Shown one piece after another: positions 4,529-35,170 of a DNA stretch of 43,420 nt. Under the pieces are notes generated by a model. That model ran no database searches and was not told the DNA's origin. It saw only the letters and a list, made by a program, of their open reading frames with translations. Numbering within the stretch: position 1 is the first letter of the stretch; each line of letters begins with the position of its first letter. Source of the stretch: Chitinophaga pinensis (GTDB taxonomy: Bacteria; Bacteroidota; Bacteroidia; Chitinophagales; UBA10324); the NCBI GenBank assembly GCA_945903305.1, contig CAMDOA010000018.1, positions 1 to 43,420 of the forward strand. The letters are read 5' to 3'. The position numbers were made by a program, and so were the translations under genes.

Positions 4529-4534
4529 ATTTAA

Positions 4535-5461
4535 TTACCACATTTTATCAACCACATAATTCGGTCGCTTGCGCGAAGAATCTAAAGCGCGCCATACATA
4601 TTCGCCAATAACACCAAGCGCTATCATCTGGAATGCGGAAACAAATAATACAACCACCATGATGGTTGTCCACCCGGAAACCGGAATGTTGCCAATGAAC
4701 TTTTCGAATAAAATAAATCCGCCATATACCAATGCAATTATTCCTAAAATAAAACCCATTACAGAAATCATGCGAATCGGAAAAAATGAAAAGGCCACAA
4801 AAGAATCAATAAATAATTTCAGTTTCTTTTTTAAAGTCCAGCGCGATTTTCCAAGCTCTCTTTTTTTTCTTGTGTAAGGAATGCTGACAAAATCATAGTT
4901 GAGCCATGACAATAAATAAATAGTGTTCGTGTTTTTTTCATCCATTGCTACTACTTCGTCTCTCAATTGTTTATCAAACAAACAAAAATCAAAACCACCT
5001 TTTGGAATATTGGGTAACGCAAATCTTTTAATCAGGTAGTGATAAGTGTTCGAAAAAATATTGTGCATCCAATGATCTTCACGGTCATTACGATTGGCAA
5101 TTACGAATTTTATTCCCTTCGTCCAGTAGTCAAACATTTTAGGAACTAACTCGGGCGGGTCTTGCAAATCAGCAGTGAGAATCACATTGCAATCGCCGGT
5201 GGCGAATTTCATTCCGGCAAGAATGGCGTTGTACGAACCCACATTCCCGGCAAGTTTGATGATTTTAAATTTATCGGGATATTGTTCTTTAAACTTTAAT
5301 AATTCCTGAACCGTGTTGTCTTTCGAACCATCATCCACCAACACATACTCGAATTGAGTTCCCTCCGGAAAATTCTTTTCATTTTCTAAAAATGCATTAA
5401 CAGTAACCGGAATATTTTTTTCGTTAAAGTAGCAGGGAGTGATAATGGAAATTTTTGCCAT
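4535..5461 (-). CDS. GT2 polyprenyl-phosphate-type glycosyltransferase
   Basis: A 308-residue GT-A fold family 2 glycosyltransferase. The N-terminus ISIITPCYFNEKNIPVT starts the nucleotide-sugar domain, VLVDDGSKDNT and ILTADLQDPPELVP carry the acidic metal-binding residues, and the C-terminus has two transmembrane segments (about 225-250 and 262-285) followed by RKRPNYVVDKMW. This is the layout of DPM1/GtrB-like enzymes that load a sugar onto undecaprenyl phosphate at the cytoplasmic face. It sits between the acyltransferase and aminotransferase genes (18-nt and 6-nt gaps), so its donor may be the 3-acetamido sugar made by this cassette. The GT-C enzyme at 7068, on the other strand, is a possible user of the lipid-linked sugar. 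Confidence 0.82.
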   Translation of the reverse strand: MAKISIITPCYFNEKNIPVTVNAFLENEKNFPEGTQFEYVLVDDGSKDNTVQELLKFKEQYPDKFKIIKLAGNVGSYNAILAGMKFATGDCNVILTADLQDPPELVPKMFDYWTKGIKFVIANRNDREDHWMHNIFSNTYHYLIKRFALPNIPKGGFDFCLFDKQLRDEVVAMDEKNTNTIYLLSWLNYDFVSIPYTRKKRELGKSRWTLKKKLKLFIDSFVAFSFFPIRMISVMGFILGIIALVYGGFILFEKFIGNIPVSGWTTIMVVVLFVSAFQMIALGVIGEYVWRALDSSRKRPNYVVDKMW

Positions 5462-5479
5462 TTTGATTGCTGAAATGTA

Positions 5480-6034
5480 TTACTGCTTTTTTACAATCTT
5501 ATTGTTTTCAAAAAAATATTCGTCGCCGGTTTTTTCATCCATCATATTCAGGTCAAGAATTAATCCATCGTTAGTTACAAATCCTTTGTGAGTTGCAGGG
5601 TTTCCGTACCAGATAGTATTGGAAGGAATATTTTTTGTGACCATACTCCCCGCACCAATCATGGCGAATTCTCCAATGGAAATATCGCCCATAATGGTTG
5701 CGTTCGCGCCGATGGAAGCGCCGCGACAAATAAATGCTCCAACATGTTTGCCGGGATATTTTTGGGAGCGCGGATATGGATTGTTCACAAAAGTTGCATT
5801 GGGCCCAATGAACACATCATCTTCCACTCGAACTCCATCCCACAAATACACACCGCTTTTGATAGTTACATTATTACCTATCACCACATCATTCTCAATA
5901 AAAGTATGGCAGTTGATATTGCAGTTCTCGCCAACAACGGCTTCTTTTAGTATGACAGAAAATTGCCACACCCGTGTGTTTTTTCCAATCTTTTCTGATT
6001 GAACATCAGCTAATGGATGTTTGAACCAATTCAT
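5480..6034 (-). CDS. Hexapeptide-repeat sugar N-acyltransferase (FdtC/QdtC-like)
   Basis: A 184-residue left-handed beta-helix acyltransferase. Imperfect hexapeptide repeats run from about residue 15 to 145 (for example VVGENCNINCHTFIEND and GASIGANATIMGDISIGE), with the usual NTIWYGNPA closing element before a short C-terminal tail. WbbJ/WbpD/FdtC-type enzymes of this length acetylate an amino sugar nucleotide with acetyl-CoA. Its position directly behind two FdtA/QdtA-like cupins and before a DegT aminotransferase makes N-acetylation of a dTDP-3-amino-3,6-dideoxyhexose the likely job. The start overlaps the upstream cupin gene by 4 nt (ATGA). Confidence 0.84.
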   Translation of the reverse strand: MNWFKHPLADVQSEKIGKNTRVWQFSVILKEAVVGENCNINCHTFIENDVVIGNNVTIKSGVYLWDGVRVEDDVFIGPNATFVNNPYPRSQKYPGKHVGAFICRGASIGANATIMGDISIGEFAMIGAGSMVTKNIPSNTIWYGNPATHKGFVTNDGLILDLNMMDEKTGDEYFFENNKIVKKQ

Positions 6035-6441
6035 ATGTTTTTTAAATTCAGGTATTGATTGTAATCCCGAAGGTAATCGTTTGCATCAAACAGTTCGGAG
6101 GTTAGCACCAGGCAAATGGCACCCGAAGAAAAATTTAATTCCTGCGCCCATATCATTGGTGGAATGTGCAAACCATAAAACGGACGATTCAATTGCACCA
6201 CTTTTTTATTCACCCCATCTTCATACATAACTTCAAAGCTTCCGCTTGCTGCAATTAAAAACTGATGACAATTTTTATGTGCATGTGCGCCGCGCGATTC
6301 ACCGGCAGGAATATCGTATAGATAAAAAACTCTTTTTATATCAAACGGAACATCCACACCTGAATGAACAGGTGTAATGTTTCCGGCGCGATTAGAAATT
6401 TTTGGTAACTCAATAATGCTGCAATCGGAAATACTGATCAT
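6031..6441 (-). CDS. FdtA/QdtA-family dTDP-sugar 3,4-ketoisomerase (WxcM-like cupin)
   Basis: A 136-residue cupin of the WxcM-like family. The catalytic pair of the family is intact as H53-x-H55 in ESRGAHAHKNCHQF, preceded by an arginine (R50). It also has the GSFEVMYEDG and RPFYGLHIPPMIW strands. FdtA and QdtA move the keto group of dTDP-4-keto-6-deoxyglucose from C4 to C3 before transamination. The gene overlaps the acyltransferase gene by 4 nt downstream and the second cupin gene by 4 nt upstream, so all are co-translated. Whether it gives the gluco- or galacto-3-keto product cannot be told from sequence. Confidence 0.84.
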   Translation of the reverse strand: MISISDCSIIELPKISNRAGNITPVHSGVDVPFDIKRVFYLYDIPAGESRGAHAHKNCHQFLIAASGSFEVMYEDGVNKKVVQLNRPFYGLHIPPMIWAQELNFSSGAICLVLTSELFDANDYLRDYNQYLNLKNI

Positions 6442-6845
6442 TGCTTTTCGGTTTTAAGTTTTAAATACAAATCGTAATCGCGTATGTAATCGTTTACATC
6501 ATACGCTTTATCGGCAAGCACCAGCGCAAGAGAATTGGTAGAAAAATTTTCGAGCGAGCGCCAAATCATTTTCGGAATATAAACTCCGCGATAGGAACGA
6601 TTCAACGAAATAATTTTTTTTGAAACCCCATCATCCAGCACCACATCAAAGCTGCCTGACAATGCAACGATGAATTCCTGCATTTCATAAAACGCATGGC
6701 CGCCGCGCATTTCGCCACCCGGCACATCATAAATCCAGTAGGTGCGCTCAATGTTAAATGGAATTTGATTCCCCTGTTCAATGAACGATAAATTCCCTCT
6801 CGGGTCGGCAATTTTTGGCAATTCAATTAACAGCGATTCTTGCAT
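6438..6845 (-). CDS. Second WxcM-like cupin, variant active site
   Basis: A 135-residue paralogue of the neighbouring ketoisomerase with the same frame of motifs (YDVPGGEMRGGH, GSFDVVLDDG, RSYRGVYIPKMIW, DYIRDYDLYL). The first histidine of the HxH pair is kept (H50), but the second is phenylalanine (F52, in RGGHAFYEMQE). It may therefore be inactive, carry a different isomerase or epimerase specificity, or form a heteromer with its partner. It is the first gene of the leftward sugar cassette, preceded by about 220 nt of AT-rich intergenic DNA, and overlaps the next gene by 4 nt. The HAF/HAY variant recurs in Bacteroidota sugar loci as far as I recall, so this looks like a stable subfamily and not decay. 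Confidence 0.75.
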   Translation of the reverse strand: MQESLLIELPKIADPRGNLSFIEQGNQIPFNIERTYWIYDVPGGEMRGGHAFYEMQEFIVALSGSFDVVLDDGVSKKIISLNRSYRGVYIPKMIWRSLENFSTNSLALVLADKAYDVNDYIRDYDLYLKLKTEKQ

Positions 6846-17342: not shown

Positions 17343-18491
17343 TTAATAATTTCCAAACAAAATAAAATTTCCATTAGCGGAATCTAATTTCAATTTCAGA
17401 TAAGTGGAGTCAGAATATTGATTCAGATAAGTATCGGTTCGTAACAATTGCAAATAAAGTTTCAGCGCAGATTTTTCGCCGGCATGCAAAGCATCAATCA
17501 TTTCGTCATTATTACTTCCATAACTTTTCAGGCGGGTAAAATCATAAATCCGAAAACCATTCTCGCGAAATACCGGATTTAAACTTTCCTGCAAATGAAA
17601 AAAACAAGTATAATTTTTTAGTTGCTTTTCGAATTGTATTAACAGATCATCATGCACCGGAGGTAAAAACCCGCTCACGCTTATATTATTTATTTTACAA
17701 AACAGCAACAACAGTCGTAGCTCGTCAATAGCATTTTTATCAATTGTTTCTAAAAAATTAAAAAGGGCAACACCCGAAAGTTCATTATTGGGTTTTTGCT
17801 GAAAAGAATCTTTTACACTTAACCGATTGTTTAACTTGTCGCCATATTCTCGGCTGCCATCTTTTCGTATTCCGCTTTGTTCTATAAGAGCAGCTAATCC
17901 ATACCACTCTGTATTATTTGATTTTTTTAAGCACCAATGATTCCAGCTTATTTTCCCTGACCAGCAATCAAAATAAAACTGTTGCCATTTTGATAATGCC
18001 TCCCAATTATTCAACCATGAATACTGGTGATAAATCAAATCGTTTGGGGTTTTTGTTAAATAATCATATTGGGCACTAAACCACCACTGATCGAGGCCAA
18101 TAATAATTACGCCCGGCAATCGGGAGCTGGGTAGCGATTCTAAAAACGACCTTATCTGAGTGAGCCTGCTAAAAACTCCTCCGGCATTATAAAACGGAAT
18201 GGAATCAGAAAAAAAAGAAGAACGGAATTGCATCACCCGGGATGAACCGATAACCAGAATATCAGGCGAAATATTTTTTGTTGCCGCAAATTTGAAATAG
18301 TGAGGAAGGTTTGAATAGGCTGCTCCGTAAATAAAATTTCGCCGGTCATTTACCTGTGCATCTAAAGTTTTATTCAACCAAAAAATTTCGCCGCTTTTAT
18401 AAAAAATAATAATTGTAAAAAGAGCTGCTAAAACATAGTAAAAAATAAAGCTGAAAAACCGCGAACTGAATTTTTGAATTTCTCTGTTCAT
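17343..18491 (-). CDS. SGNH-like envelope protein paired with MBOAT
   Basis: A 382-residue protein with one N-terminal membrane helix (about 14-32) and a periplasmic domain. DILVIGSSRVMQFR (G82-S83-S84-R85) resembles the block I serine region of SGNH hydrolases and of DltD/AlgJ-like accessory acyltransferases, followed by FYNAGG, IIGLDQWWF and a C-terminal D-x-x-H-like segment (MIDALHAGEKSA). MBOAT enzymes often work with such a protein, which passes the acyl group to the glycan. The gene starts within the MBOAT stop codon (1-nt overlap, TGATG), which supports a functional pair. It is the last gene of the glycan operon. A catalytic role is inferred; the triad is not certain. Confidence 0.6.
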   Translation of the reverse strand: MNREIQKFSSRFFSFIFYYVLAALFTIIIFYKSGEIFWLNKTLDAQVNDRRNFIYGAAYSNLPHYFKFAATKNISPDILVIGSSRVMQFRSSFFSDSIPFYNAGGVFSRLTQIRSFLESLPSSRLPGVIIIGLDQWWFSAQYDYLTKTPNDLIYHQYSWLNNWEALSKWQQFYFDCWSGKISWNHWCLKKSNNTEWYGLAALIEQSGIRKDGSREYGDKLNNRLSVKDSFQQKPNNELSGVALFNFLETIDKNAIDELRLLLLFCKINNISVSGFLPPVHDDLLIQFEKQLKNYTCFFHLQESLNPVFRENGFRIYDFTRLKSYGSNNDEMIDALHAGEKSALKLYLQLLRTDTYLNQYSDSTYLKLKLDSANGNFILFGNY

Positions 18492-19951
18492 CAGAATTGG
18501 AAGTAAATAAATTGTGAATTATTAAAAACACCAAAAACCAAAATAACGATTAGCAACAAATGATATACACTTAACCGAACCCAGCGCGGATGATTGATCA
18601 TTAAATCATAAAACTCCCGCTCTTTCATAAATCGCTGAACTGCTTCAAGGGCAAAAATGCCCACTAAAGAAAAATAAAAAACCGATGGGGTAACGATGAG
18701 AATATCTGATAACGAAAAACTTATTTGAAAAGAAGAAATAATTATCAGGCACGCATCGCTTACTGAATTGGCGCGAAAAAAAATCCAAGCGAAACACACA
18801 AGTGAAAAGGTGAGCACCTGCTTCGTTAATTTTTGAATCCCTGATTTTGCAAAAGAACTTTGTAATTGAATTAACCGGCTTGAAGAAAATGATTCATTCC
18901 TGGTTTTCTTTCCGGCTAATAATTTTTCAACAATAATATAAAGCGCATGCAATGCACCCCAAATAACAAAAGTGTAATTGGCACCATGCCATAAACCGCT
19001 AACAATAAAAACGAGGGCAAGATTCAGGTAATTTTTTTTTACTGATACTTTGCTTCCTCCAAGCGGAATGAATAAATAATCGCGAAACCACGATGAGAGC
19101 GAAATGTGCCATCGCCTCCAAAACTCGGTAACGGAGGCAGAAGAATAAGGGCGATCAAAATTTTTCATTAACCGGAAACCCATCACCCGGGCAGCGCCAA
19201 TGGCAATATCAGTGTATCCACTAAAGTCACAATAAATCTGATAAGCAAAAAAAATGGTGGCTATTATTATAGTAAGCCCCTCATATTTATCGGGGTGATT
19301 ATATACTTCATTCACATAAATGGCCAGCCGATCAGCAATCACTAATTTTTTAAAAAATCCCCAGGCCATCTGTTTCAGTCCTTCGGTCACGCGTTGATAA
19401 TTAAAATCATGCGATTCATAAAACTGGTGAATAAGATTTTGTGGCCGCTCAATTGGCCCTGCAACCAACTGTGGATAAAACATGACATATAAAGAATATA
19501 TCCCGAAATTTTTTTCTGCTTTCTGCTTTCCCCGGTAAACCTCAATGACATAAGCCATGCTTTGAAAAGTATGAAACGAAAGCCCAACAGGTATAATGAT
19601 ATTATAGACAAAGGGTGCTACATCATAATGAAACAAATGAGCAACGGAAGAAAAGGTTTCGGAAAAAAAATTGAAATATTTAAAAGCAAAAAGTATGAGC
19701 GCAGTTGAAATTAAACTGACTATAAGCAGCAATTTTTTTCGAAACCCCGATTGCCGCTCCATTAAAATGGCTGCGATATAGTCAACAACAATAGTGAGCG
19801 CGAGAATGAAAATATACATCGGAATAAAAGCCATATAAAAACAACAGCTTGCCGCCAATAACCACATCCACCTATACCGATGCCGCAACAGAAAATAAAT
19901 AACTGTTACAACCGGAAAAAAGAGGAGAAATGAAAAGGAGTTAAAAAGCAT
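18491..19951 (-). CDS. MBOAT O-acyltransferase (AlgI/DltB family)
   Basis: A 486-residue integral membrane acyltransferase. The family marks are QLVAGPIERPQNL (residues about 161-173), YCDFSGYTDIAIG (240-252), FWRRWHISLSSWFRDYLFIPLGG (277-299) and SGLWHGANYTF with the invariant histidine H322. AlgI-like MBOATs move an acyl group, usually acetyl, from a cytoplasmic donor across the membrane for O-acylation of an exported polysaccharide. The SGNH-like gene overlaps it by one base, the usual partner arrangement. It lies 61 nt after the methyltransferase gene, the loosest junction in the operon, so a secondary promoter is possible although no TAnnTTTG box is visible. Confidence 0.9.
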   Translation of the reverse strand: MLFNSFSFLLFFPVVTVIYFLLRHRYRWMWLLAASCCFYMAFIPMYIFILALTIVVDYIAAILMERQSGFRKKLLLIVSLISTALILFAFKYFNFFSETFSSVAHLFHYDVAPFVYNIIIPVGLSFHTFQSMAYVIEVYRGKQKAEKNFGIYSLYVMFYPQLVAGPIERPQNLIHQFYESHDFNYQRVTEGLKQMAWGFFKKLVIADRLAIYVNEVYNHPDKYEGLTIIIATIFFAYQIYCDFSGYTDIAIGAARVMGFRLMKNFDRPYSSASVTEFWRRWHISLSSWFRDYLFIPLGGSKVSVKKNYLNLALVFIVSGLWHGANYTFVIWGALHALYIIVEKLLAGKKTRNESFSSSRLIQLQSSFAKSGIQKLTKQVLTFSLVCFAWIFFRANSVSDACLIIISSFQISFSLSDILIVTPSVFYFSLVGIFALEAVQRFMKEREFYDLMINHPRWVRLSVYHLLLIVILVFGVFNNSQFIYFQF

Positions 19952-20012: not shown

Positions 20013-20753
20013 TTACTTATGCAATACAAAACAATAAGTAAAATAACTGGCAAGGGCCGGTTTTCGATTAATCGTTAATTTATCAATGGAGGAAAGTACG
20101 GGTAATAAAAATTTTACATCAGGTAAATTATTCCATAGCGACATGCCCCTTGCCGGCACGCGCATTACCGGAAAAACAGATATAGTTTTCATTTCAGCTT
20201 TATCAAATAATGAAAGATAATGTTTCTGTGATCGGAATAAGTGCTTTGCAGTTTCAGCGGTTTCATTTTTTACTTGTTCGAATAATAATATTCTTCCATC
20301 AGGCTTCACTACTCTTTTTAATTCGTTTAACCATTGGATTGATTCAGCATCATTTATGTGTTGAAATACCCAGTGAGAAAAGGCTGCATTGAAATAGTTT
20401 TCTCCCACAGTAATTTTTATTTCATTTAACAATTCATAACGGATATTTTTTTTACCGCTGAATTTCCGTTTTGCTGTTTCAATCATCGACGCATTTGAAT
20501 CAACTCCGACAACTTCCATTGCTTTTTCTGCAATCAATTTTGTTATTCGCCCAACACCACAACCAAAATCAAGAATGGTTTCATTTTTTTTAGCATTAAT
20601 ATTTTTCAAAATATAATTTTTGGTGAAATAGTTGCGATAAATATTGGCATGCTGCTGGCCGGCGGCAACATCAAGAACCGCATTTTCGTTTTGATGCAGG
20701 TTGGCCGCTGAACTGAAAAATTCTTCGACTTGTTTTTTATCAATCGAGCTCAT
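20013..20753 (-). CDS. Class I SAM-dependent methyltransferase
   Basis: A 246-residue Rossmann-fold methyltransferase. Motif I is ETILDFGCGVGR (residues about 58-69), the acidic ribose-binding residue is in VVGVDSNAS, and the later blocks YFNAAFSHWVFQHI and LKRVVKPDGRILLFEQ are typical of methyltransferase domain 11/25 enzymes. I place the start at 20753 because its ATG overlaps the upstream stop by 4 nt (ATGA); a longer frame from 20786 would overlap by 37 nt. The position inside the glycan operon suggests methylation of a sugar hydroxyl, carboxyl or amidine group, but the acceptor cannot be read from sequence. Confidence 0.8.
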   Translation of the reverse strand: MSSIDKKQVEEFFSSAANLHQNENAVLDVAAGQQHANIYRNYFTKNYILKNINAKKNETILDFGCGVGRITKLIAEKAMEVVGVDSNASMIETAKRKFSGKKNIRYELLNEIKITVGENYFNAAFSHWVFQHINDAESIQWLNELKRVVKPDGRILLFEQVKNETAETAKHLFRSQKHYLSLFDKAEMKTISVFPVMRVPARGMSLWNNLPDVKFLLPVLSSIDKLTINRKPALASYFTYCFVLHK

Positions 20754-21787
20754 GACCGGATAAAAATTTTTTTGAAAATATTCCAAAGCTTTAATTGCAT
20801 TGGTTTTAATGCATAGCCTGTATGTGAAACAGGAATCTGCTGGGCACCGAATCGCAACTTGAATTTTGTAATGCCTTCACTGAATTTCAAATTGGTTTTG
20901 GTTATTTCCAGCGATGTTTCTCCTAAAAAATAATTTTGAAATCCACTTACTTTTAAATACTTCATTATTTCCCAATGCAGAAACTGACCTGCACCCAAAC
21001 TGTTTTTAACCGTGCCTCCGAAATTATAAAGCGATGATTTCCCGAAATTGTAAAGCAGGGCACCGCATAAATATTTTCCATTATGTTTTGCAAAAACAAG
21101 TTGGGCAAAATTATTTGACTTTAAAATTTCATATTCCCGGCATATAAAATTTTTATTGGGCGCATGCGAATCTTGGTTTTTATAAGTTTCATCCATCAAT
21201 AAAAATAACAATTCAATATCGTTGGAAAACTCAATGGTTAAATTGTTCTTTTCCGCTTTGATAATTTCACTACGGTGCTTAGGATTTATTTCTTTGCGGA
21301 GCTCCTCTATCTTTTTTGTCAAATCAATTTTTGCAATACCAATTCTGCTTTCCCAAACTTTTTTATATTCCGATAACGAAATCAGCTTTCCTGTTTCACC
21401 ATAAAAACTGTATGAATAAAAAGTAGTTGTGCGTTTGGTTTTCAACCACTTTTTAATTGCATCGGTTAAAGCGATTAAAAAATTATCGAAGTCAATGTTT
21501 TTTGAGTCGTCAAATAAAATTTCACTTCCTTGTGTTGCTCTTGAGCTAATACTTCGAATAAACCCCGGTAGCCTTTTCGATTCATAAAAATAAATTTTAA
21601 CTCCGCCGATTAATTTTTCCTGATTGAAACATTGAAAATACCAGGCGCGATTATTAAAAAACAATTGAACTTCATCGTTAAAAGTGCTTTGCCAGATATT
21701 GGAACATTGAACCGATAATTGATTCCACGCATCGGGCTGAAGCGGTTTGTTTTTAGTAATAATTATTTTAAAATCAGTATCTGTCAT
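20750..21787 (-). CDS. FemAB/GNAT-like acyl- or aminoacyltransferase
   Basis: A 345-residue protein with the double-GNAT look of FemAB-like transferases (acetyltransf_6 type). Typical segments are QSTFNDEVQLFFNNRAW near the N-terminus, a basic block INPKHRSEIIKAEKNNL in the middle, and the C-terminal half LCGALLYNFGKSSLYNFGGT followed by GAGQFLHWEIMKYLKVSG and YFLGETSL. Family members transfer amino acids to peptidoglycan or acyl/aminoacyl groups to exopolysaccharide sugars. Here it follows the amidotransferase fusion (14-nt overlap) and precedes a methyltransferase (4-nt overlap), which favours decoration of a glycan amino group over peptidoglycan cross-bridge synthesis. Substrate unknown. 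Confidence 0.65.
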   Translation of the reverse strand: MTDTDFKIIITKNKPLQPDAWNQLSVQCSNIWQSTFNDEVQLFFNNRAWYFQCFNQEKLIGGVKIYFYESKRLPGFIRSISSRATQGSEILFDDSKNIDFDNFLIALTDAIKKWLKTKRTTTFYSYSFYGETGKLISLSEYKKVWESRIGIAKIDLTKKIEELRKEINPKHRSEIIKAEKNNLTIEFSNDIELLFLLMDETYKNQDSHAPNKNFICREYEILKSNNFAQLVFAKHNGKYLCGALLYNFGKSSLYNFGGTVKNSLGAGQFLHWEIMKYLKVSGFQNYFLGETSLEITKTNLKFSEGITKFKLRFGAQQIPVSHTGYALKPMQLKLWNIFKKIFIRS

Positions 21788-24700
21788 GAATAAAATACTC
21801 GTCTTTTAAAGTGCCGTATAAATCAAGCAGCTTTTTTTGTTCGTGTTCCCAGTTCAGAATTTTTTTTGCTGTTTTAACACTTGCCTTAAATTCTTCCTTT
21901 CTTTTTTCCAGCTCTAAAAATCCTTTGTAGTACGCATCGGGTTCATCGGCATTTACGCATACACCAATGTTATGCTTTTCAATAATTTCTTTATGCTCGG
22001 GTTGTGCCGATGCAAGAACAGGCAACTCGGCCATCACATAATGAAAAAGTTTATTTTCAAGACCCAGCCAGTAACTCATATATTGTTTGTTCCAGGTACT
22101 TAGCAAACCATAATCTGCAGCTTGTATAAATTTTACAATGTCGGCAGGTTGAATAGCAGTATGAAAGAAAATATTTTTATATCCGGCTTCGCTTACCCAC
22201 TGCATAATTTCGTTTTTGTTTCCGCCCTCACCGCAAATAAATACCAGAGCCACACCGGGTTTATTTGCAAACTGTTCAATGGCGGCTTCAATATTGCGCG
22301 ATTTCCAATAAATGTATAATGAAAAATTCAAAACAATTTTTACATCATTTGAAAGGCCGAGCTCACGACGCAGAAGCATATCATTAGTTGTTATTTCTTC
22401 GTACTCAGCTAAATTCCGGATGATGATGGCACTGTTTTTCAGTTCGAAATAATTTTTTAAATCGATGCCAATAGAACTGGAAACAGTAATTAACCGGTCA
22501 ATATAATGTCGCACGCGATATTCGCGCGCCACCTCAATCTTGCGAACAATATCTGATTTTAACTTAACCCAGGGCGATGCTTTGCTTGAATAATTAATGG
22601 GCCATGAATGAAACAATTCATGCGAATCATAAATCAGCATTGTTTCGGGGCGAATTTTTTTAACCAATGTACCAATAAAAACCATCAGCTGATCGTGGCA
22701 GTGCAGTATATCAAAAGCCTGACGCGATATCAATACCGATACTTTTTTTCGTGCAGTAAAACTTTTAACAGTAAAAATTTCAGGCTCAAAAATGCGGTGA
22801 ATCGAAATTCCATCCTTTATTTCAAACTCCGGAAGGTCGTGGCGCTTAACTGCATAAAGGGTTAATGAATATCCATGATTAACCAGTGTTTTTGCTTCGC
22901 GGTAAACACGGCTATCCATGGTAAAAGAGTTATCGAGCAGCATGGCAATGGTTGGTAAAAAGTTCACCATTGTTGTATCGGTCTCCTTTCTTATTAATAG
23001 CTGATCATAAAAATCAATAAGCAATTTACTTTCGTTGGTCCAGTTTAATTCCTGCTTGGCCTTTTGAAGATTGGCTTTAAATATTTCCTGTTTATCAATT
23101 ACTTCTTTCCAACCTTTATAATAGGCACCGGGTACATCGGGATTTACACAAACACCAATTTTATATTTCTCTACAATGGCGCTGTACTCAGGCTGTGCCG
23201 TTGAGAGCATTGGAATTTCTGCCATCAGATAATTAAAGAGTTTATTATCCAGGGCATACCAGTAGCTTAAATCTTTTTTGTTCCAGGTGGGCACAATGCC
23301 TGCATCGCAACCAGATAAATAGGTGGTAATTTGATGGTGGGGCACTACATCGTGAAACAAAACATTGTTAAATTTTTTTCGCTTCACATAATTTTCAACC
23401 TGCTTTCTGTGCTCATCGCCCGAGCTGATAATAATTAATACCAGGTCTTCCTTGTTTCCAATTTCGTTCAGCACCTGCACCATATTTAAACTTTGCAGGT
23501 AAATGTGTGCGCCTATAAATACCAATATTTTTTTTTCATCCGGAATATTAAATTTTTTTCGAAGCACATAATTCCGATCTGTAATGATTTCGTTGACCGG
23601 AACATTTCGAATAACGAGCGGATTCGTTTTTAATTTAAAATATTCTTTCAGGTTATCGGCTAACGATTGATTTACAGTAACCAAAAAATCAATTGCACGA
23701 CCAAATTTTTTTTCATTTCGGATTTGAATCATCCGAACATATAACGATTTGAAAATGATGTAAGGATTTTTAGTGGTAAAGTTGAGCGGCCATGAGTGAA
23801 AAAGTTCGTGCGAATCATAAATCAAAACCGTATTCGGATTCAGTTTTTTAATCATCGCTCCAATCCGAAGCATTAAATGATCGTGACAATGAATCACATC
23901 AAATTGATACGATGCAATTCGATTAGCCACCATTTTTAAATCGCGCTGAGATTGAAACCGAAAAACATCGCGAGGAATTATCCGCTCAATTTTTACTCCG
24001 TTTTTTATTTCTCTGAACGGAAGATCGGGCGAGTACATGCAAAACATAGTGAGGTTAAAATATTTTGCGACAGTGGTAGCTTCTTGTATTACCCGATTAT
24101 CGTTTGTGTAGGAGTTATCGAGCAGCATCGCCACTTTTTTACCGCGATTATTAACTGTAAATCTTCTTTTTTGTTTTTTCGGCTGACTAAACCATTTTAT
24201 AAATTTTGAAAGAAACCGTAATTGTCTATACAAGTTTAAAATGGAAGGATAGTAGGTGTGCTCTACTTGTGGCATTGATAAAATAGTGTTAAAGGCCTCA
24301 TTCGATAATCCGAATTTCTTCAGTACATATTCCTTGTCTGATGCCGCTAACGATTCTGAAATTAAAGGCTTTGCCGATTCAATTAATGCCTCTTCGCGTG
24401 TGAGCTGACCCGAACAAATCATGGTGCTCAAATGCGACTTGCGCTTATCAACCTGAAATTTTACAGGCAAAATAAATGACTGATAAAACCGGGTGATTAT
24501 TGATTCATAATGTTTGCCGCCGTAGTCGCGCCAGTTCAATTTGGTTGTCAAAAGTTCTTTAGCTTCTTTTCGGTTATAATGAACAAGGTCAAGAAGCTTT
24601 ACATATTGTATTCTTTTAATTTTTTCAAAATAGAATTTTCGAATGACTCCCAGCTTCGGAAATGTTTTTAATTTTCCATTTCCAAACCGTCGGTTTATTG

Positions 24701-25319
24701 CATGAATATTAATTAAATCGTTTTTATTATGCGCCCATCTTTCGGGTAAAATTCCTTCGGTTCTGAAATTTTCGCCGCTTAAAATATATTTAATTCCTTT
24801 TTCATAAGCTACTTTATAAAGCGTTGCAAATATGGCGTGGTCAGAAGTTGCTTCAATATCAATGACCGATGCTTTTAAATAAGCCAGCTGTAAGTTTTTA
24901 AATTCTTCCCAATTAATTACATGGGTGTACAGGTCTATGTCTAATTCCTTCAGTGTGTTTGAAATATTGCTGACCGCCAGTTCAGAGTTCCATCCATTAT
25001 CGCAATGCACTGCAAGTGGCCGCAATCCGTATTGCTTCACCAGTAAGGCAACATATGTTGAATCGACTCCGCCGCTTACGCCAATGACGCAGTCATAAGC
25101 ATTGTTTTTTCCTTTTTCTTTTATTTCGGCAATTAATTTTTCGAGAAATTGTGTTCGCTCTGATGCTGGAAGAATTCGAATAGCGGCTTGATGCTCATAT
25201 AAATTGCAGTGATTACAAACTCCATTTTTATCAAAATAAATTGATGCATCATCAGCAGTTGATAATATGCATCGGGTGCATATCTGGTAGGGTCGTGTTA
25301 ACATTGTTGGTAGCGGCAA
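21774..25319 (-). CDS. Fusion: N-acetyl sugar amidotransferase + two GT4 glycosyltransferases
   Basis: One uninterrupted 1181-residue frame with three modules. Residues 1 to about 378 are a WbpG/PseA-type N-acetyl sugar amidotransferase: a Cys pair C14-x2-C17, a second pair C35-x2-C38, and the ATP-binding PP-loop SGGVDS (82-87). Residues about 395-775 and 787-1170 are two homologous GT4-type glycosyltransferases, each opening with AMLLDNS, then HCHD, YDSHELFHSWP, an AG/LL...TWNK...SYW block and AQPE...IGVCVN. Stand-alone amidotransferases are about 370-390 residues, so this is a gene fusion. An internal ATG (codon 784, at 22970) could also start the last module separately; no such Met exists before the middle one. 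It lies 6 nt after hisF2, which should supply ammonia for making an acetamidino group. Confidence 0.85.
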   Translation of the reverse strand: MPLPTMLTRPYQICTRCILSTADDASIYFDKNGVCNHCNLYEHQAAIRILPASERTQFLEKLIAEIKEKGKNNAYDCVIGVSGGVDSTYVALLVKQYGLRPLAVHCDNGWNSELAVSNISNTLKELDIDLYTHVINWEEFKNLQLAYLKASVIDIEATSDHAIFATLYKVAYEKGIKYILSGENFRTEGILPERWAHNKNDLINIHAINRRFGNGKLKTFPKLGVIRKFYFEKIKRIQYVKLLDLVHYNRKEAKELLTTKLNWRDYGGKHYESIITRFYQSFILPVKFQVDKRKSHLSTMICSGQLTREEALIESAKPLISESLAASDKEYVLKKFGLSNEAFNTILSMPQVEHTYYPSILNLYRQLRFLSKFIKWFSQPKKQKRRFTVNNRGKKVAMLLDNSYTNDNRVIQEATTVAKYFNLTMFCMYSPDLPFREIKNGVKIERIIPRDVFRFQSQRDLKMVANRIASYQFDVIHCHDHLMLRIGAMIKKLNPNTVLIYDSHELFHSWPLNFTTKNPYIIFKSLYVRMIQIRNEKKFGRAIDFLVTVNQSLADNLKEYFKLKTNPLVIRNVPVNEIITDRNYVLRKKFNIPDEKKILVFIGAHIYLQSLNMVQVLNEIGNKEDLVLIIISSGDEHRKQVENYVKRKKFNNVLFHDVVPHHQITTYLSGCDAGIVPTWNKKDLSYWYALDNKLFNYLMAEIPMLSTAQPEYSAIVEKYKIGVCVNPDVPGAYYKGWKEVIDKQEIFKANLQKAKQELNWTNESKLLIDFYDQLLIRKETDTTMVNFLPTIAMLLDNSFTMDSRVYREAKTLVNHGYSLTLYAVKRHDLPEFEIKDGISIHRIFEPEIFTVKSFTARKKVSVLISRQAFDILHCHDQLMVFIGTLVKKIRPETMLIYDSHELFHSWPINYSSKASPWVKLKSDIVRKIEVAREYRVRHYIDRLITVSSSIGIDLKNYFELKNSAIIIRNLAEYEEITTNDMLLRRELGLSNDVKIVLNFSLYIYWKSRNIEAAIEQFANKPGVALVFICGEGGNKNEIMQWVSEAGYKNIFFHTAIQPADIVKFIQAADYGLLSTWNKQYMSYWLGLENKLFHYVMAELPVLASAQPEHKEIIEKHNIGVCVNADEPDAYYKGFLELEKRKEEFKASVKTAKKILNWEHEQKKLLDLYGTLKDEYFIHDRY

Positions 25320-25325
25320 ACTTAA

Positions 25326-26075
25326 CTACCATTTCATATCGGAAGAAGAAGGATATGAAATTAGTACGGCTTTGTGTGCGCCGGTAAAAACGAATAGGCT
25401 ACCGGCGGCGGCGGCTGATGCGCCACATGATACCACGCTTCGCAAATCTGATACAGAACCTGCACCACCACAGGCAATTACCGGAATGGATACTGCTCTT
25501 GAAATTTCTTCGATAAGTTTTAAATCATATCCTTTCATTAGTCCATCCTGCTGCACGGTTTGAATTAATATTTCACCTGCTCCTGCATCTTCCATTTGTG
25601 CAAGGTGATTTTTCCATGATGTAACAATCATTTTTCCGGCTGCTGAATAGAGAATGTAATTCCCAAACATGCTTTTAGTTATATCAATTGAAACAACAAT
25701 GGTAGAGCTTGCAAATTTCTTTGCGGCTTCTTTTATGAAGGCAGGATTTTCTAACGCTGATGAATTTATTATAACCTTCTCGACCCCCAATTTTATTAAT
25801 TGCTCAATGTCGTTTAATGTTTTTATTCCGCCGCCATAAGCAAGCGGCATAAAACACTCGCTTGCTAAATCGCGAATGAGCGAGAAGTTGATAGATTGAT
25901 TTTTTTTTGAAGCATCAATATCCAGCACCACTATTTCATCTACTTCCTTTTCATTGAAAATTTTAATTGCATTAATTGGGTCGCCAACATAGCGGGGCTT
26001 CGAAAATTTTTCGGTCTTCACCAATTCTCCCTGCTGAATTAATAAAACCGGAATAATGCGTGCGCGATAACTCAT
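25326..26075 (-). CDS. HisF2/AglZ-type subunit for acetamidino sugar synthesis
   Basis: A 249-residue (beta-alpha)8 barrel of the HisF family. The second catalytic aspartate is kept (D131 in VVSIDITKS, equal to D130 of Thermotoga HisF), but the first (D11) is leucine: RIIPVLLIQQG at residues 6-16 where true HisF has a CLDV motif. Phosphate-binding loops YGGGIKT and ACGGAGSV remain. This pattern fits HisF2 proteins of O-antigen loci, which pair with a HisH glutaminase to channel ammonia to an N-acetyl sugar amidotransferase instead of making imidazole glycerol phosphate. No other his genes are nearby. It overlaps hisH by 4 nt and is followed after 6 nt by the amidotransferase fusion. Confidence 0.86.
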   Translation of the reverse strand: MSYRARIIPVLLIQQGELVKTEKFSKPRYVGDPINAIKIFNEKEVDEIVVLDIDASKKNQSINFSLIRDLASECFMPLAYGGGIKTLNDIEQLIKLGVEKVIINSSALENPAFIKEAAKKFASSTIVVSIDITKSMFGNYILYSAAGKMIVTSWKNHLAQMEDAGAGEILIQTVQQDGLMKGYDLKLIEEISRAVSIPVIACGGAGSVSDLRSVVSCGASAAAAGSLFVFTGAHKAVLISYPSSSDMKW

Positions 26076-26689
26076 ATCAGTGCAGCAAAATTTTTATACA
26101 ATTCCATTCCGTAACGATGACTTTTTTCGGGGTGAAACTGTACGCCATAAATATTTTCTTTCTGAATGCCTGAAATAAAATTGTAACCATAATGTGTTTG
26201 AAACCACTTATTTTCTTCAGCAACATTTGCCAAATGAAAAGCATGAACAAAATAAAATCGCTGCTCGGTTTCTGCGCTTGAAAAAAGCGAATTGCTTTTT
26301 AGCTGATCAACCGAATTCCAGCCCATGTGCGGAATACGAATTTGCTCTACGGCCTTTTCGGGGTTAAACCGAACTACATCAGCATCAATCCATCCGAGAC
26401 CTTTTAAGTTTCCTTCTTCACTTTGCTTGCACATCAATTGCAAGCCCAAACAAACCCCAAGGACAGTAATTTTTTCTTTCAGCACTTTTTCATTGAGTGC
26501 TTCAACCCATCCTCTGTCATTCAGCAATTTCATTCCGGTGTCGAACGAACCAACACCGGGAAGAATAATTTTTTTTGCTTCAGCAATTTCAGCCGGCACT
26601 GAAGTGATAATGGAATCAGCCCCGATTTTTTTCAGCATGTTTTTTATGCTTGAAATATTTCCGGCGCCGTAATCAATGATGTGAATCAT
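26072..26689 (-). CDS. HisH-type glutamine amidotransferase
   Basis: A 205-residue class I glutaminase. The triad is complete: nucleophile C80 in GVCLGLQLM, and H186 and E188 in VQFHPEKSH; the oxyanion region PGVGSFDTG is present. HisH releases ammonia from glutamine for a partner barrel. With a HisF2-like barrel lacking the first catalytic aspartate, and an N-acetyl sugar amidotransferase downstream, the likely end product is an acetamidino sugar and not histidine. It overlaps the HisF2 gene by 4 nt and the preceding GT4 gene by 17 nt. Confidence 0.92.
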   Translation of the reverse strand: MIHIIDYGAGNISSIKNMLKKIGADSIITSVPAEIAEAKKIILPGVGSFDTGMKLLNDRGWVEALNEKVLKEKITVLGVCLGLQLMCKQSEEGNLKGLGWIDADVVRFNPEKAVEQIRIPHMGWNSVDQLKSNSLFSSAETEQRFYFVHAFHLANVAEENKWFQTHYGYNFISGIQKENIYGVQFHPEKSHRYGMELYKNFAALI

Positions 26690-27863
26690 AGCGCCACAAA
26701 GATGGATTAGTGATGATGAGATTATAAAGATCCAGTAAATTTTTTTGTTCCTGTTTCCAGTTCAGTTTTTGTTTAGCGCTTACTAATTCAGAATGAAAAT
26801 TTTCGGGCTGTGCTAAAATCTGTTTCAATCCTTTTGTAAAAGCACCTGGAATTTCGGGGTCAACACAAACACCAATATTATATTCTTCCACAATTTTTTT
26901 GTACTCAGGTTGTGCTGTGGCAAGAATTGGAATTTCAGCCATGATGTAACTGAATAATTTATTATCAAGCGCCAGCCAATAACTTATATCCTTTTTATTC
27001 CATGCCGAAACAATTCCTGCATCGCAGCCACTCAGCACACTTGTAATTTGATTGATTGGTATAAGCGGATGAAAAAACACATTGCTCCAAATGTTTTCTT
27101 CCACCCACTGTTTGAACCATTGCGAATGTGAATCATCACCTGTAATAATCACCACAGAAATATTCGGCACGGATACAATTTCCTCAATCGCCTGTTCCAT
27201 GCGAAGCGAGTTCTTATATAAATGCCCGCCTATGTAAACCACAATTTTATTTTCTGTATCAATTGCAAATTTGTTTCGCAGGTAATCACTTCGTTTTATC
27301 ACCGCTTCGTATCGCGGAATATTTCGGGTAACAACCGCATTTGTTTTCAGTTTAAAATATTTAGTAAGAATATCTGCAATGGATTGATTGACCGTAATCA
27401 GGAAATCTGCTTTTCGTCCGTCGGCTTTTTCTTTTCGCACTTCTAACTTTCTGACTATCCATGATTTCAACCACAACACAAATCCGGGTGTCGAAACATG
27501 CAGCGGCCACTGATGAAACAACTCGCGCGATTCGTAAATCAGTTTTGCACTCGGCTGTTTCTTTTTAATAATTGTTCCGAGGTGTAACATTACCCGGTCA
27601 TGACAGTGAAGAATGTCAAAATTTTTTTTACAGATTTCAGTACAGTGTTTTTGTAAACTGTTATTATTCCGGAACAAATAAATATCCGAAGTAAAAATTC
27701 GATGAATGAAAAGATTGTTTCGTGTTTCAGTTTCCGGAAAATCTTTTTCCTTCATGCAGAATAAATGCAATTCAATATCAAGAGAACATAAACTTTCCAT
27801 CTCGAGCAATGCACGACGATCAATGGTTAAAGTATTGTCGAGCAAGAGAGCGACTCTCTTCAT
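26673..27863 (-). CDS. GT4-type glycosyltransferase (third paralogue)
   Basis: A 396-residue GT-B fold glycosyltransferase closely resembling both C-terminal modules of the neighbouring fusion protein. Shared landmarks: VALLLDNTLTIDRRAL at the start, DILHCHDRVMLHLG, the variant YESRELFHQWP where the fusion has YDSHELFHSWP, AGIVSAWNKKDISYWLALDNKLF and ILATAQPEYKKIVEEYNIGVCV. The last block provides the acidic residue region that binds the nucleotide-sugar in retaining GT4 enzymes. It lies 6 nt after the PIG-L gene and overlaps hisH by 17 nt. Donor and acceptor are unknown; being one of three related enzymes, it may add successive residues of one repeat unit. Confidence 0.82.
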   Translation of the reverse strand: MKRVALLLDNTLTIDRRALLEMESLCSLDIELHLFCMKEKDFPETETRNNLFIHRIFTSDIYLFRNNNSLQKHCTEICKKNFDILHCHDRVMLHLGTIIKKKQPSAKLIYESRELFHQWPLHVSTPGFVLWLKSWIVRKLEVRKEKADGRKADFLITVNQSIADILTKYFKLKTNAVVTRNIPRYEAVIKRSDYLRNKFAIDTENKIVVYIGGHLYKNSLRMEQAIEEIVSVPNISVVIITGDDSHSQWFKQWVEENIWSNVFFHPLIPINQITSVLSGCDAGIVSAWNKKDISYWLALDNKLFSYIMAEIPILATAQPEYKKIVEEYNIGVCVDPEIPGAFTKGLKQILAQPENFHSELVSAKQKLNWKQEQKNLLDLYNLIITNPSLWRYDSHH

Positions 27864-27869: not shown

Positions 27870-28502
27870 TTAGTATATAACTTTCATTACTTCAAATGCT
27901 TCGGCAAATTCACTTCCGATTTGCACACCTCGCGCAGTTGCCAATCCACGAATGAATCCTTCATTCAGATAAGCGCGGTGCGATTGTGATTTATACGCTT
28001 GAAGCGCCTCTAATTTTTTCACCACAAATTTTTCTTCAAGTTTTATAAAACAACTGGTTTGAAAATTCAGATTGTTCCACGGCAATTCATAACCAAGAAT
28101 GGAAGCATCTTTAAAAGCGCGCAACCCTTCGTTATGAATGACCTGATGATCCTGATGCAAATCGCTGGAGCATGGAAGAAAAACCAGTTCGGGTTGCAAT
28201 TCTTTTTTCAGCAACACTATGTCTTCTAAAATATTCTGACGGTGTGTGCTGAAATGCCTGACATCGTAATCAAACAACCGAAGGTTCTCTGCAGGAATTC
28301 CTAAAATTTTTGTCGCTGCTTTCACTTCAATTTCTAATGTGTCGGGAGCAAGGCCCGGTTCAAGCGAAGTGCGGCAAAGCGAAAATGCAGCGTAGTAAAT
28401 TTCTTTTCCTTCAGCCACAAAGCGCGCAATGCTTCCACCCAAACCCAACTCACCATCATCAGTATGCGGCGCTAAAACGAGAATTCTTTTTTTATTAATC
28501 AT
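27870..28502 (-). CDS. PIG-L/LmbE family N-deacetylase
   Basis: A 210-residue zinc-dependent deacetylase of the PIG-L/LmbE family. The first metal/catalytic block is PHTDDGELGLGG (residues 12-23; most members have PHPDD), and the third metal ligand is in SDLHQDHQ. The family removes acetyl from N-acetylglucosamine-type groups on lipid-linked or nucleotide sugars. It opens the glycan operon, and a TATATTTG -7 box lies 18 nt before its start. Deacetylation next to an acetamidino-forming trio could free an amino group for the FemAB-like transferase or another substituent; this order of events is inference. Confidence 0.85.
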   Translation of the reverse strand: MINKKRILVLAPHTDDGELGLGGSIARFVAEGKEIYYAAFSLCRTSLEPGLAPDTLEIEVKAATKILGIPAENLRLFDYDVRHFSTHRQNILEDIVLLKKELQPELVFLPCSSDLHQDHQVIHNEGLRAFKDASILGYELPWNNLNFQTSCFIKLEEKFVVKKLEALQAYKSQSHRAYLNEGFIRGLATARGVQIGSEFAEAFEVMKVIY

Positions 28503-32203: not shown

Positions 32204-35170
32204 TTATTTATTCATTGTTAAATCTTCGGAATTCAGAATGGCTTTATATATCGCAGCTTGAATATTCTTGCGCACATTCAATAAATTTATTTTTCCGTTT
32301 TCGTCATCAGGATAAGTTCTGTTGGAAAGAAAAACAAAGGTTAAATTGTATTGCGGATCGGTCCATACACAAGTACCAGTGAATCCCTGGTGGCCATAAG
32401 TGTTACATGAAGCTTCACTGCAACAAGGGCTTGCTTTATCAGGATCCGGTTCCGGTTTATCGAAACCTAAACCACGGCGGCAAATTTTTCCTGCCTGTGT
32501 TGTAAACTTCTGAACTGTTTCTGACGAAAAGTATTTTTCCCCTCCATACTCACCTTGGTTCAACAGCATTTGCATTTGTATTGCAACATCATTTGCTGAA
32601 GAAAAAACTCCGGCGTGTCCACCAACACCACCCAGCATTGCCGCACCCTGATCATGTACAAATCCCTGAATTAATTCGCGGCGATAAAAGTTATCATAGT
32701 TCGATGGAACTATTCGGCTTAATGAAAATTTATCCGTTGGGTTGTAGGTCATGGTTGGCAATCCAAGAGGAGAATAAAAATTTTTATTAATTGAGTATTC
32801 AATTGGCCGGCTATTAATTTTCTCAGCAACCGCTTTCATAAAAAAAAAATCGAGGTCGCTGTACACATAACTTCCTCTCGAATTTAGAGGAGAAGCCAAA
32901 ATTTTTTGCCACATGGTATCAATGTATTCGGGCTTCATAAAAATATTTTTTGTCACTCTGATACTGAATTCTTTTGTATGGATACTGCTGTAAATAGTCG
33001 CATCTAATTTTCCGTAATCATTAAGCGTTTGTTTATAAAACGGAATAAATGGTTTTAATCCTGCTGTGTGCGTCAGTAGTTCTTTTATTATTATCGATGA
33101 TTTGTTGGTTCCCTTTGTTTCCGGTAAATAATCTCCAAGAGTTTTATTCAAATCAATTTTTCCATTGTCGTATAGCTTCATGATTTCCATTGTGGTGGCA
33201 GAAGTTTTAGTAATAGAAGCAAGGTCGTACAAATCATCGTTGCGCACCGAATCAATTTTATCATAAGTAAAGAAGCCGAACGATTTCTGGTAAATAACCA
33301 TTCCATCTTTTGCCACTAAAACCTGGCAGCCTGGAAATGCCCGAGCCAGTATTGCCTCATCAACTATTGAATCAATTTTTTTTAACAAATCATCGCGCAC
33401 GCCAACTTCTTCGGGTTGCGAATATTTTAACCGGATTGTTGATGATGTCAGTAATCCTGTTCCTGACGGAATTGTTTTTGAAGCGCTTACCGATAATTTT
33501 CCTTTTGCTTTTATTCCGCCGAATAAAAGTTGCGCAGCCATTTTTTGTGTAATGGATTCATCATTATAACATTCCAGTAACCAGTTCTGCTCTTCAAAAA
33601 ACTTCAATGCATACGGACTTCCGAAAACAGCAACTACTGTTTTTTTCTGTTTGCTGATGGCATCAATAAAAGTTTCGGAGCTCTGAGTGATACCATAAAA
33701 GTCGCTCGACTTTTTATTCATATTGTGAATACTGATGATAACGAGGTTGTAATCTTTCAGCTTTACTGCAAGCGAAACATATTCTTCCTTGGTCGCCTGC
33801 TTATCCATCTGAAAACTTTTCACAGGGGCATATTGTTCCAGCATTTCCTGAAACTGATTTCTGCTGAAAGCGCCAATGGCAACCGAAGCAATTCGCAGTG
33901 TATCCAGTTTCTTTAATGGAATGAAATTGTTTTTGTTGCGAACAAGTGTCAATGCATTTTCAACCAATTGTTGTTTCAATAATTTTGCTTCGTTGGTATT
34001 TAAATCTTCATTCAGATTTTTCAGCGAAATGGTTTGTCGCTTGTTTAATCCGCACCAGTATTTCGCATGAAGAATTTTTTTCACGCGCTCATCCACTTCT
34101 GCTCTTGTAATAAATCCGCTGTCAATTGCCATTTTAATTTGCCTGATTGCTTCGCCTACATTTCCTGAAAATAATAGCACATCATTTCCTGCAAGCAATG
34201 CCATTGCATCCACTTTTCCGGGGGCAGAATAATTACTTACACCTTTCATGTTCATGGCATCAGTAAAAATCAAACCCTGAAAACCGAGTTGCTGTTTTAA
34301 AATTCCGGTGACAATAGCAGGTGAAAGTGTAGATGCACGGTTCTTTGTAGTGTCCATTGCCGGAATAAAAAGATGCGCAACCATCATACTTCCAACTCCT
34401 GCATTAATCATTTCTTTGAAAGGAAATAATTCCAAAGTATCCAATTTTTGTTTCGAAGTATTGATAACCGGAAGAGCGAGGTGCGAATCAGTATCTGTAT
34501 CACCATGACCTGGAAAATGTTTTGCGCATGCAATCACTCCGCCATCCTGCATACCTTTCATATATGCGATTCCTTTTTTAGCAACATTGTACTTGTTATC
34601 ACCAAAACTTCGGTCGCCAATAACCGGATTGAGCGCGTTGTTATTGATATCGACAACGGGAGCAAAATTTACATTCACACCAATGCGCCTGCACTGCCTT
34701 GCAATTTCTTTACCCATTAAATAAATGAGCGAATCATTTTGAATGGCGCCAAGCATTTGCTGGCGTGGAAAATTCATGATACTGTCGAGACGCATACTTA
34801 ATCCCCACTCGCCGTCAATAGCAATCAGCAATGGAACTTTTGAAATGCTTTGATAATAATTTGTCAATGAAATTTGTCGTCCCGGACCACCCTGCATAAA
34901 AATCAATCCGCCTATTTTATATTTATTTATCAGCGAAGCAATTTGTTGTTTCTCTTCAGGACCTTTATTACTGTAAGCGGCCATCATAAACAACTGACCT
35001 AATCTTTCATCAGAAGTAAGTGTATTGAAAACAGAATCGACCCACTCTGAACTCTCCAATAAAAACGGAGGTACATCACCATCAAATAATTTAATATCCC
35101 TTGGACCAGGTGAGGCTAAAGGCAGAAAAAAAATTACGGCGAGCACAATTAAAACAAACAACTTCTTCAT
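32204..35170 (-). CDS. GH3 (NagZ-like) + beta-lactamase-like serine hydrolase fusion
   Basis: A 988-residue exported two-domain enzyme with a signal peptide (1-20). The GH3 half (about 45-380) has the NagZ histidine/aspartate loop KHFPGHGDTDTDSH (217-230) and the nucleophile D304 in IFTDAMNMKGV, so it should cleave beta-N-acetylglucosaminyl or related linkages. A GH3 C-terminal-like region (about 400-570) links to a class C beta-lactamase/transpeptidase-like domain (about 595-980) with SITK (652-655, nucleophile S652), YSD (770-772) and GHQGFTG (926-932). The combination is known in Bacteroidota and suggests periplasmic or outer-membrane peptidoglycan recycling with amidase/esterase activity of the second domain. 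It is divergent from queA. Confidence 0.88.
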   Translation of the reverse strand: MKKLFVLIVLAVIFFLPLASPGPRDIKLFDGDVPPFLLESSEWVDSVFNTLTSDERLGQLFMMAAYSNKGPEEKQQIASLINKYKIGGLIFMQGGPGRQISLTNYYQSISKVPLLIAIDGEWGLSMRLDSIMNFPRQQMLGAIQNDSLIYLMGKEIARQCRRIGVNVNFAPVVDINNNALNPVIGDRSFGDNKYNVAKKGIAYMKGMQDGGVIACAKHFPGHGDTDTDSHLALPVINTSKQKLDTLELFPFKEMINAGVGSMMVAHLFIPAMDTTKNRASTLSPAIVTGILKQQLGFQGLIFTDAMNMKGVSNYSAPGKVDAMALLAGNDVLLFSGNVGEAIRQIKMAIDSGFITRAEVDERVKKILHAKYWCGLNKRQTISLKNLNEDLNTNEAKLLKQQLVENALTLVRNKNNFIPLKKLDTLRIASVAIGAFSRNQFQEMLEQYAPVKSFQMDKQATKEEYVSLAVKLKDYNLVIISIHNMNKKSSDFYGITQSSETFIDAISKQKKTVVAVFGSPYALKFFEEQNWLLECYNDESITQKMAAQLLFGGIKAKGKLSVSASKTIPSGTGLLTSSTIRLKYSQPEEVGVRDDLLKKIDSIVDEAILARAFPGCQVLVAKDGMVIYQKSFGFFTYDKIDSVRNDDLYDLASITKTSATTMEIMKLYDNGKIDLNKTLGDYLPETKGTNKSSIIIKELLTHTAGLKPFIPFYKQTLNDYGKLDATIYSSIHTKEFSIRVTKNIFMKPEYIDTMWQKILASPLNSRGSYVYSDLDFFFMKAVAEKINSRPIEYSINKNFYSPLGLPTMTYNPTDKFSLSRIVPSNYDNFYRRELIQGFVHDQGAAMLGGVGGHAGVFSSANDVAIQMQMLLNQGEYGGEKYFSSETVQKFTTQAGKICRRGLGFDKPEPDPDKASPCCSEASCNTYGHQGFTGTCVWTDPQYNLTFVFLSNRTYPDDENGKINLLNVRKNIQAAIYKAILNSEDLTMNK

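Follow-up and report, generated by a model that had tools for sequence, protein, structure and literature searches.

A single open reading frame in a 43,420-nucleotide stretch of Chitinophaga pinensis DNA (contig CAMDOA010000018.1 of assembly GCA_945903305.1, hereafter the window) joins an N-acetyl sugar amidotransferase of the WbuX/WbpG type to two tandem glycosyltransferase (GT) domains of family GT4. WbuX enzymes and GT4 enzymes are of an already known kind; what is new is the triple layout WbuX-GT4-GT4, which within the samples we searched is seen only in the window's family. The fusion and its kin suggest a physical coupling of acetamidino modification to sugar transfer. Our tentative reading, which we think nearly an even bet, is of a three-domain multi-enzyme, encoded in a surface-glycan operon, that would amidinate an N-acetyl sugar and add the neighbouring sugars, probably on a carrier lipid, with its activities, substrate, carrier and order of steps all predicted. 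Whether WbpG/WbuX enzymes of bacteria form acetamidino sugars on the free nucleotide sugar or on the glycan under construction has, to our knowledge, yet to be decided, and having the amidotransferase and the GTs in one chain makes the amidination step directly testable with one expressed protein.

The fused frame and its domains

The frame lies on the minus strand at 21774..25319 and is open for 1181 codons (1181 amino acids (aa), computed mass 137.8 kDa) counted from a TTG at 25319, exactly where a preliminary description of this DNA, which named no strand, had placed it. The likelier start is an ATG at codon 6 (25304), giving 1176 aa, because the six other genomes that carry the layout have an ATG at codon 5. 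At the given base composition, the chance of an open frame this long is about 1e-38. The order of domains is WbuX (aa 12-347), a first GT4 domain (GTa, about aa 392-776) and a second (GTb, about aa 787-1178), and the frame check, the NCBIfam and Pfam scans and an alignment of the seven sequences agree with the domain identities and boundaries first proposed.

The WbuX domain (24279..25286, minus strand) scores 282.8 bits with the NCBIfam model TIGR03573 (cut-off 203.2) and has a match to the PDB entry 8WEX of the family member LpNASAT. It keeps both family motifs, the PP-loop SGGxDS and the tetracysteine CxxC...[GN]xCxxC, which PMC10607449 gives as motifs of N-acetyl sugar amidotransferases. 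In the window these read SGGVDS (aa 82-87, 25059..25076, minus) and C14xxC17...C35xxC38 (25206..25280, minus), the latter being the zinc site in LpNASAT, and all four cysteines are invariant across the 15 rows of alignment A2. We assign the domain to the WbuX/WbpG type on these grounds and predict acetamidino formation. The same source describes the structural and functional properties of WbpG/WbuX enzymes as little known. The window protein shares with the WbuX/WbpG/PseA family the PP-loop, the tetracysteine and the partners HisF2 and HisH, and differs in that its chain continues into two GT4 domains. The named WbuX, WbpG and PseA members known to us are single-domain proteins. A WbuX homologue on a Spirosoma oryzicola plasmid (L094, 6043-7200) keeps the PP-loop and has an incomplete tetracysteine, and it was left out of the WbuX tree for that reason.

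Three Pfam GT4 models (PF13439, PF13692 and PF00534) each score over cut-off on two stretches of the fusion, corresponding to GTa (22992..24146, minus; NF007640 matching best at 524-759; clade support 99/99) and GTb (21786..22961, minus). The two domains are 41% identical to each other, and a stand-alone paralogue in the same operon, GTc, is 48% identical to GTa and 41% to GTb. The GT-B fold was assessed on the model of GTb only, with a predicted local distance difference test score (pLDDT) of 70.4; its nearest structure is MshA (Z 21.7, root-mean-square deviation (rmsd) 7.0, 341 residues aligned), and the next matches, BshA among them, have Z of at most 19.8 and rmsd of 12-16. The window domains thus resemble GT4 enzymes by Pfam score and by the fold of GTb, but they are far by sequence from solved enzymes (the closest in a profile search of the PDB has E 1.7e-4), they are in tandem and fused to WbuX, and their best sequence model is WcaI-like and below its cut-off. 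Their motif also looks atypical. GT4 enzymes usually carry an E-x7-E motif; the region reads [AG]L[DE]NKLFxYxMAE in GTa, GTb and GTc, and the second Glu, present in the relatives in G029, G055 and G043, is N, H and S, respectively.

Single-GT4 relatives in G029, G055, G043 and G058 have gene neighbourhoods that gave no functional lead. Among viral contigs, nothing related to the WbuX or GT alignment was found, and phages gave two weak matches, both to the GT part. We rejected a Massilia GT4 as near kin of GTa, GTb and GTc, as it is 24-25% identical to the three and sits on a very long branch.

The fusion is real, and an artefact or frameshift is ruled out by a frame that is open in seven genomes. 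Stop codons at the module junctions, named beforehand as a refuting result, occur in none of the seven frames with this layout, the window's included, and the junctions themselves (codons 380-395 and 776-787) coincide with variable linkers in the alignment of seven. It is scarcely credible that the frame stems from misassembly or that internal start codons yield separate proteins: Met784 of the window does lie close to the start of GTb, but it is not conserved in the other six genomes, and the same frame occurs in all seven. GTc begins MKRVALLLDN in the window, and at the position of its first Met GTa has Gly (six genomes) or Ser (one) and GTb has Leu (six) or Phe (one), which makes translation from the old GT starts unlikely.

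Conservation, permutation and recurrence of WbuX fusions

We searched 16 genomes of the family at an E threshold of 1e-60, with the window genome as G000. The layout was found in the window's own genome, in each of the five further genomes from its genus (G001-G005) and in one from another genus (G010); apart from the window's own, these fusions are 1180-1183 aa long, without stops and with 64-78% identity. The remaining genomes have a stand-alone WbuX (G009 and G012), a different fusion (G007) or no match (six genomes). Locus L004 (BJGQ01000029.1) equals contig C29 of G004 in length, was taken to be that record and was not counted as independent.

In the alignment of seven, invariant columns make up 49% of WbuX, 42% of GTa and 52% of GTb, and in the linkers 0 of 17 columns (first) and 1 of 12 (second). 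By the method of Nei and Gojobori (NG86), nonsynonymous divergence (dN) was 0.09-0.18 and synonymous divergence (dS) was 1.6-2.4, which is near saturation, across all three domains in the pairs G000/G004 and G002/G005; in the pair G000/G010, dS was computable for GTb only. All three domains are under purifying selection, with dN/dS far below 1.

The genes around the fusion are also retained. HisF2 and HisH stand directly upstream of it in six of the seven genomes, while in G005 both are on another contig. G000, G001, G003 and G004 all have the same order of nine genes, as does G002 up to the end of the contig. The PIG-L deacetylase gene and GTc are on another contig in G010, as they are, together with HisH and HisF2, in G005, and both of these genomes have no methyltransferase gene between the FemAB-like and MBOAT genes. 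All six genus members retain the block, one of them in split form. Since O-antigen clusters usually vary, this suggests a glycan common to the genus.

The seven genomes are not seven independent cases, and we rejected counting them so: the G010 fusion (L049, contig C32) groups with G000 and G004 inside the window's genus for GTa (100/97) and WbuX (100/95), with GTb unresolved. This nesting suggests that the fusion locus probably moved between genera.

A permuted arrangement was found in G007, which belongs to a third genus. Here a 1008-aa frame following HisF2 (L054, 1156-4182) has a GT4 at 21-406, WbuX at 428-798 and then a 208-residue GT remnant, which BLAST matches only to the N-terminal half of window-type GTs (about 25% identity) and Pfam does not match. 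The GT tree, drawn without this half-GT, places the N-terminal GT4 of G007 with GTb (86/57, a moderate support) and its separate GTc with GTc (97/99); its WbuX groups with the fused WbuX domains (94/81). From these groupings the three GT4s seem to predate the split of G007, with one GT4 having changed ends; the domains of G007 moved and the linkage was retained.

Fusions of WbuX to other enzymes occur beyond the family. Genomes with a WbuX match over cut-off numbered 70 of 396 in the order sample, 54 of 395 in the phylum sample and 129 of 395 in the class sample, these samples overlapping. In the order sample, frames longer than 600 aa with such a match were the eight fusions of this family and those of G037 and G049; the phylum sample had only the one in the window's genome, and the class sample at least 16 besides the window's, among the matches listed. 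The preliminary description had taken WbuX to be normally stand-alone, which is true of most matches, although fusions are no rarity. It had also known of no protein with this layout; the triple layout was indeed seen only in this family, but fusions of WbuX with varied partners recur in the class. Searches of an open-access library, from which most subscription papers and preprints are missing, showed no WbuX-GT fusion, judged mainly from titles and the openings of abstracts and with one search too loose to inform.

We examined 18 of these fusions (the 16 from the class sample, G037 and G049), 12 of which were scanned directly for families, and WbuX is the C-terminal part in all 18. The partner is a GT4 by scan in G900, G926 and G1091, a GT4 by homology (32-77% identity) in G846, G815, G774 and G916, and a GT2 in G933. 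It is a hexapeptide acetyltransferase in G1074 (L102, 2961-4730) and an asparagine synthase-like (AsnB-like) protein in G1103 (L110, 3515-6592). In G1068 (L105, 3002-4780) it is the N lobe of a GT4, with PF13439 over cut-off and no model of the C lobe in the frame. The partner in G037 and G049 is GT4-like by a weak profile match only (E 3.6e-4 against alignment A1, PF13439 below cut-off) and had no match to alignment A4 (E 0.42). The N-terminal partner in G917, G921 and G895 had no family over cut-off (one was scanned) and aligned to the GT4 alignments with hhalign at E 0.12 and 0.19; for that in G956 and G1010 the only match was PF00535 at E 0.005, in one of the two. Searches of PDB sequences with profiles A5, A6 and A7 found no match.

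These class fusions resemble the window's in that WbuX is covalently tied to an enzyme of glycan or amide chemistry; they differ in having WbuX at the C-terminus and a single partner, and BLAST detects no kinship of the partners with GTa, GTb or GTc of the window apart from a weak local match in G926 (E 6e-4). Profile alignment of the G900-type GT4s with those of the window gave E 4e-5, as expected within one broad fold family. When 38 WbuX domains are placed in one tree, those fused to different partners are scattered, some beside stand-alone proteins, which makes it probable that WbuX became linked to other enzymes on several occasions. The order sample also has frames of 1354-1482 aa (at least nine, all in family f17) and others of 563-692 aa whose WbuX-like matches stay below cut-off, and a match on a Roseovarius plasmid is annotated as a non-ribosomal peptide synthetase.

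In two distant cases, G1068 and the C-terminal part of G007, WbuX seems to carry no more of a GT4 than its N (acceptor) lobe. Such half domains, together with the substitution of the second Glu in all three window GT4s, could mean that one GT4 domain of the fusion is a binding module or pseudo-enzyme that presents the acceptor to WbuX and transfers nothing. We consider this improbable, given that in the seven genomes of this layout neither GT4 domain is truncated and the conservation of both is close to that of WbuX.

It could also be that fusion serves only to keep the domains in equal amounts or to help them fold together, each working independently without channelling. The linkers are variable, GTc stays unfused in the same operon, and the two other family genomes with a stand-alone WbuX have it in other clusters, all of which would fit. 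We give this idea little credence, however, as a benefit of linkage is suggested both by the fusion of WbuX to several different GTs and by the persistence of the fusion in G005, in which the remainder of the operon sits on a different contig.

Proposed coupling of amidination and sugar transfer

Under our reading of an amidinating and sugar-transferring multi-enzyme, the HisH product would free ammonia from glutamine and HisF2 would hand it on to WbuX, which, using ATP, would convert the N-acetyl group of a sugar to an acetamidino group. The two GT4 domains would attach adjacent sugars on the same oligosaccharide, most likely on a carrier lipid, so that the sugar amidinated would be one just transferred by, or due for extension by, the fusion's own GT domains. 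Coupling of amidination and transfer is plausible, and the permuted order in G007, the recurrent GT partners and the two cases that seem to have an N lobe only give it more support than the preliminary description had. More broadly, the recurrent fusions point to working pairs of GT and amidotransferase. A wider proposal, possible in our view though less likely than not, is that WbuX-type enzymes act on a lipid-carrier-linked sugar while it sits in the acceptor lobe of a GT-B enzyme, a contact that would have been repeatedly fixed by fusion in Bacteroidota, and that the three-domain protein works as an assembly line, first amidinating and then extending.

Two known systems are comparable. Deletion of the WbpG homologue MMP1081 of Methanococcus maripaludis leads to loss of the acetamidino group of sugar 3 and of all of sugar 4, given as an unpublished result in PMC2952790, and the next transfer therefore seems to depend on amidination. 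The likeness lies in this joint loss; the difference is that the archaeal system makes an N-glycan with separate proteins. For Sphingomonas sp. LM7, PMC11340318 describes a polysaccharide cluster (cluster B) that brings together genes for WbuX, HisF2, HisH and a GT4, as in the window, but lists them as separate genes.

Several points weigh against amidination on the carrier by a coupled enzyme. A CMP-sugar is the presumed substrate of Campylobacter PseA, and hexapeptide acetyltransferases, a WbuX partner in G1074, work on nucleotide sugars in other pathways. The half-GT of G007, at about 25% identity, may be decaying. Near the G1068 fusion, a 395-aa neighbour (one of four neighbours scanned) has a weak donor-lobe match to PF13692 (24.2 bits, cut-off 27), making it possible that a donor lobe acts there in trans. 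The full-length AlphaFold model, built from six sequences (pLDDT 57.8, predicted template modelling score (pTM) 0.34), is too weak to place the domains face to face, and we left it unused for judging their arrangement. Finally, the MMP1081 mutant still transfers the unamidinated sugar 3, which fits amidination of a nucleotide sugar too (PMC2952790).

This last result bears on an alternative in which amidination takes place on the nucleotide sugar and the fusion passes the amidinated donor straight to the adjacent GT domain. We regard it as somewhat unlikely. An acetyltransferase-WbuX fusion exists, and in Massilia litorea an unfused cluster GT4-HisH-HisF2-WbuX adjoins aminotransferase, acyltransferase, oxidoreductase and sugar dehydrogenase genes, a nucleotide-sugar-like setting. 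FdtA points the same way: it was found in six of the eight fusion genomes (the seven and G007), with two matches in each of the six genus members, and the window's two adjoin aminotransferase and acetyltransferase genes and could supply an N-acetyl sugar nucleotide. The conserved block, however, holds no such genes, as no gene for nucleotide-sugar synthesis was recognised in its nine genes by family scans or synteny comparison; two fusions seem to retain the GT acceptor lobe only; FdtA was not found in G007 or G010; and neither NeuB nor Epimerase_2 was found in all eight. NeuB (PF03102) was found in one of the eight fusion genomes, G010 and not the window's, with the control positive in 9 of 14 genomes, and its lack in seven of eight makes a nonulosonic acid substrate (PseA/LegS-type, NeuB/Pse/Leg) unlikely. 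Epimerase_2 (PF02350), a UDP-sugar 2-epimerase tied to WbpG-type D-ManNAc3NAmA or FnlC-type L-FucNAm pathways, is over cut-off in six of eight, the window's included, and was not found in G002 and G007. Routes of the ManNAc3NAcA and FucNAc types, by the usual enzyme assignment, were not found in all eight genomes. As a sign of a substrate route shared by the eight, Polysacc_synt_2 is uninformative, as it occurs in all eight and in 14 of 14 controls; its WbpM-like form of 630-650 aa is in seven of eight, not in G002. These are draft genomes (completeness 80% for G010, 93% for G002 and 99% for G007), and absences from them are not firm.

Genes around the fusion

All nine genes of the block are on the minus strand, and in order of transcription the first four lie upstream of the fusion. 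The PIG-L type de-N-acetylase (27870..28502) scores 53.5 bits with PF02585 against a cut-off of 28.2, and is followed by GTc (26673..27863), identified by sequence comparison and the GT tree. In the MshA and BshA pathways a PIG-L type deacetylase acts next, and the presence of this gene in the operon fits an MshA/BshA-like GT fold, though it is no proof. The HisH-type glutaminase (26072..26689; TIGR01855, 221.2 bits against 105.4) has the motifs GVCLG and QFHPEKS and is presumably live. The HisF2/AglZ acetamidino modification protein (25326..26075; NF038364, 353.1 bits against 310) reads PVLLIQQG at its N-terminus, which may stand where true HisF has its catalytic Asp.

Downstream of the fusion are a FemAB/GNAT-like protein with weak matches (20750..21787; TIGR03019 at 32.3 bits and PF13480 at 18.6 bits, both below cut-off), an S-adenosylmethionine-dependent methyltransferase (20013..20786; PF08241), a DltB-like MBOAT O-acyltransferase (18491..19951; PF03062, with TIGR04091 at 145.7 bits, below its cut-off) and, beside the MBOAT gene, a conserved 382-aa protein with no family match (17343..18491).

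Elsewhere in the window, a group of genes at 3419-6845 (minus) encodes a DegT aminotransferase, a PgfS-like GT2, a hexapeptide acetyltransferase and two adjacent FdtA proteins. It is a possible source of a 3-acetamido sugar, in the making of which we take FdtA to have a role. At 32204-35170 (minus), a GH3 glycosidase and a beta-lactamase-family domain are joined in one 988-aa frame, as they are in relatives.

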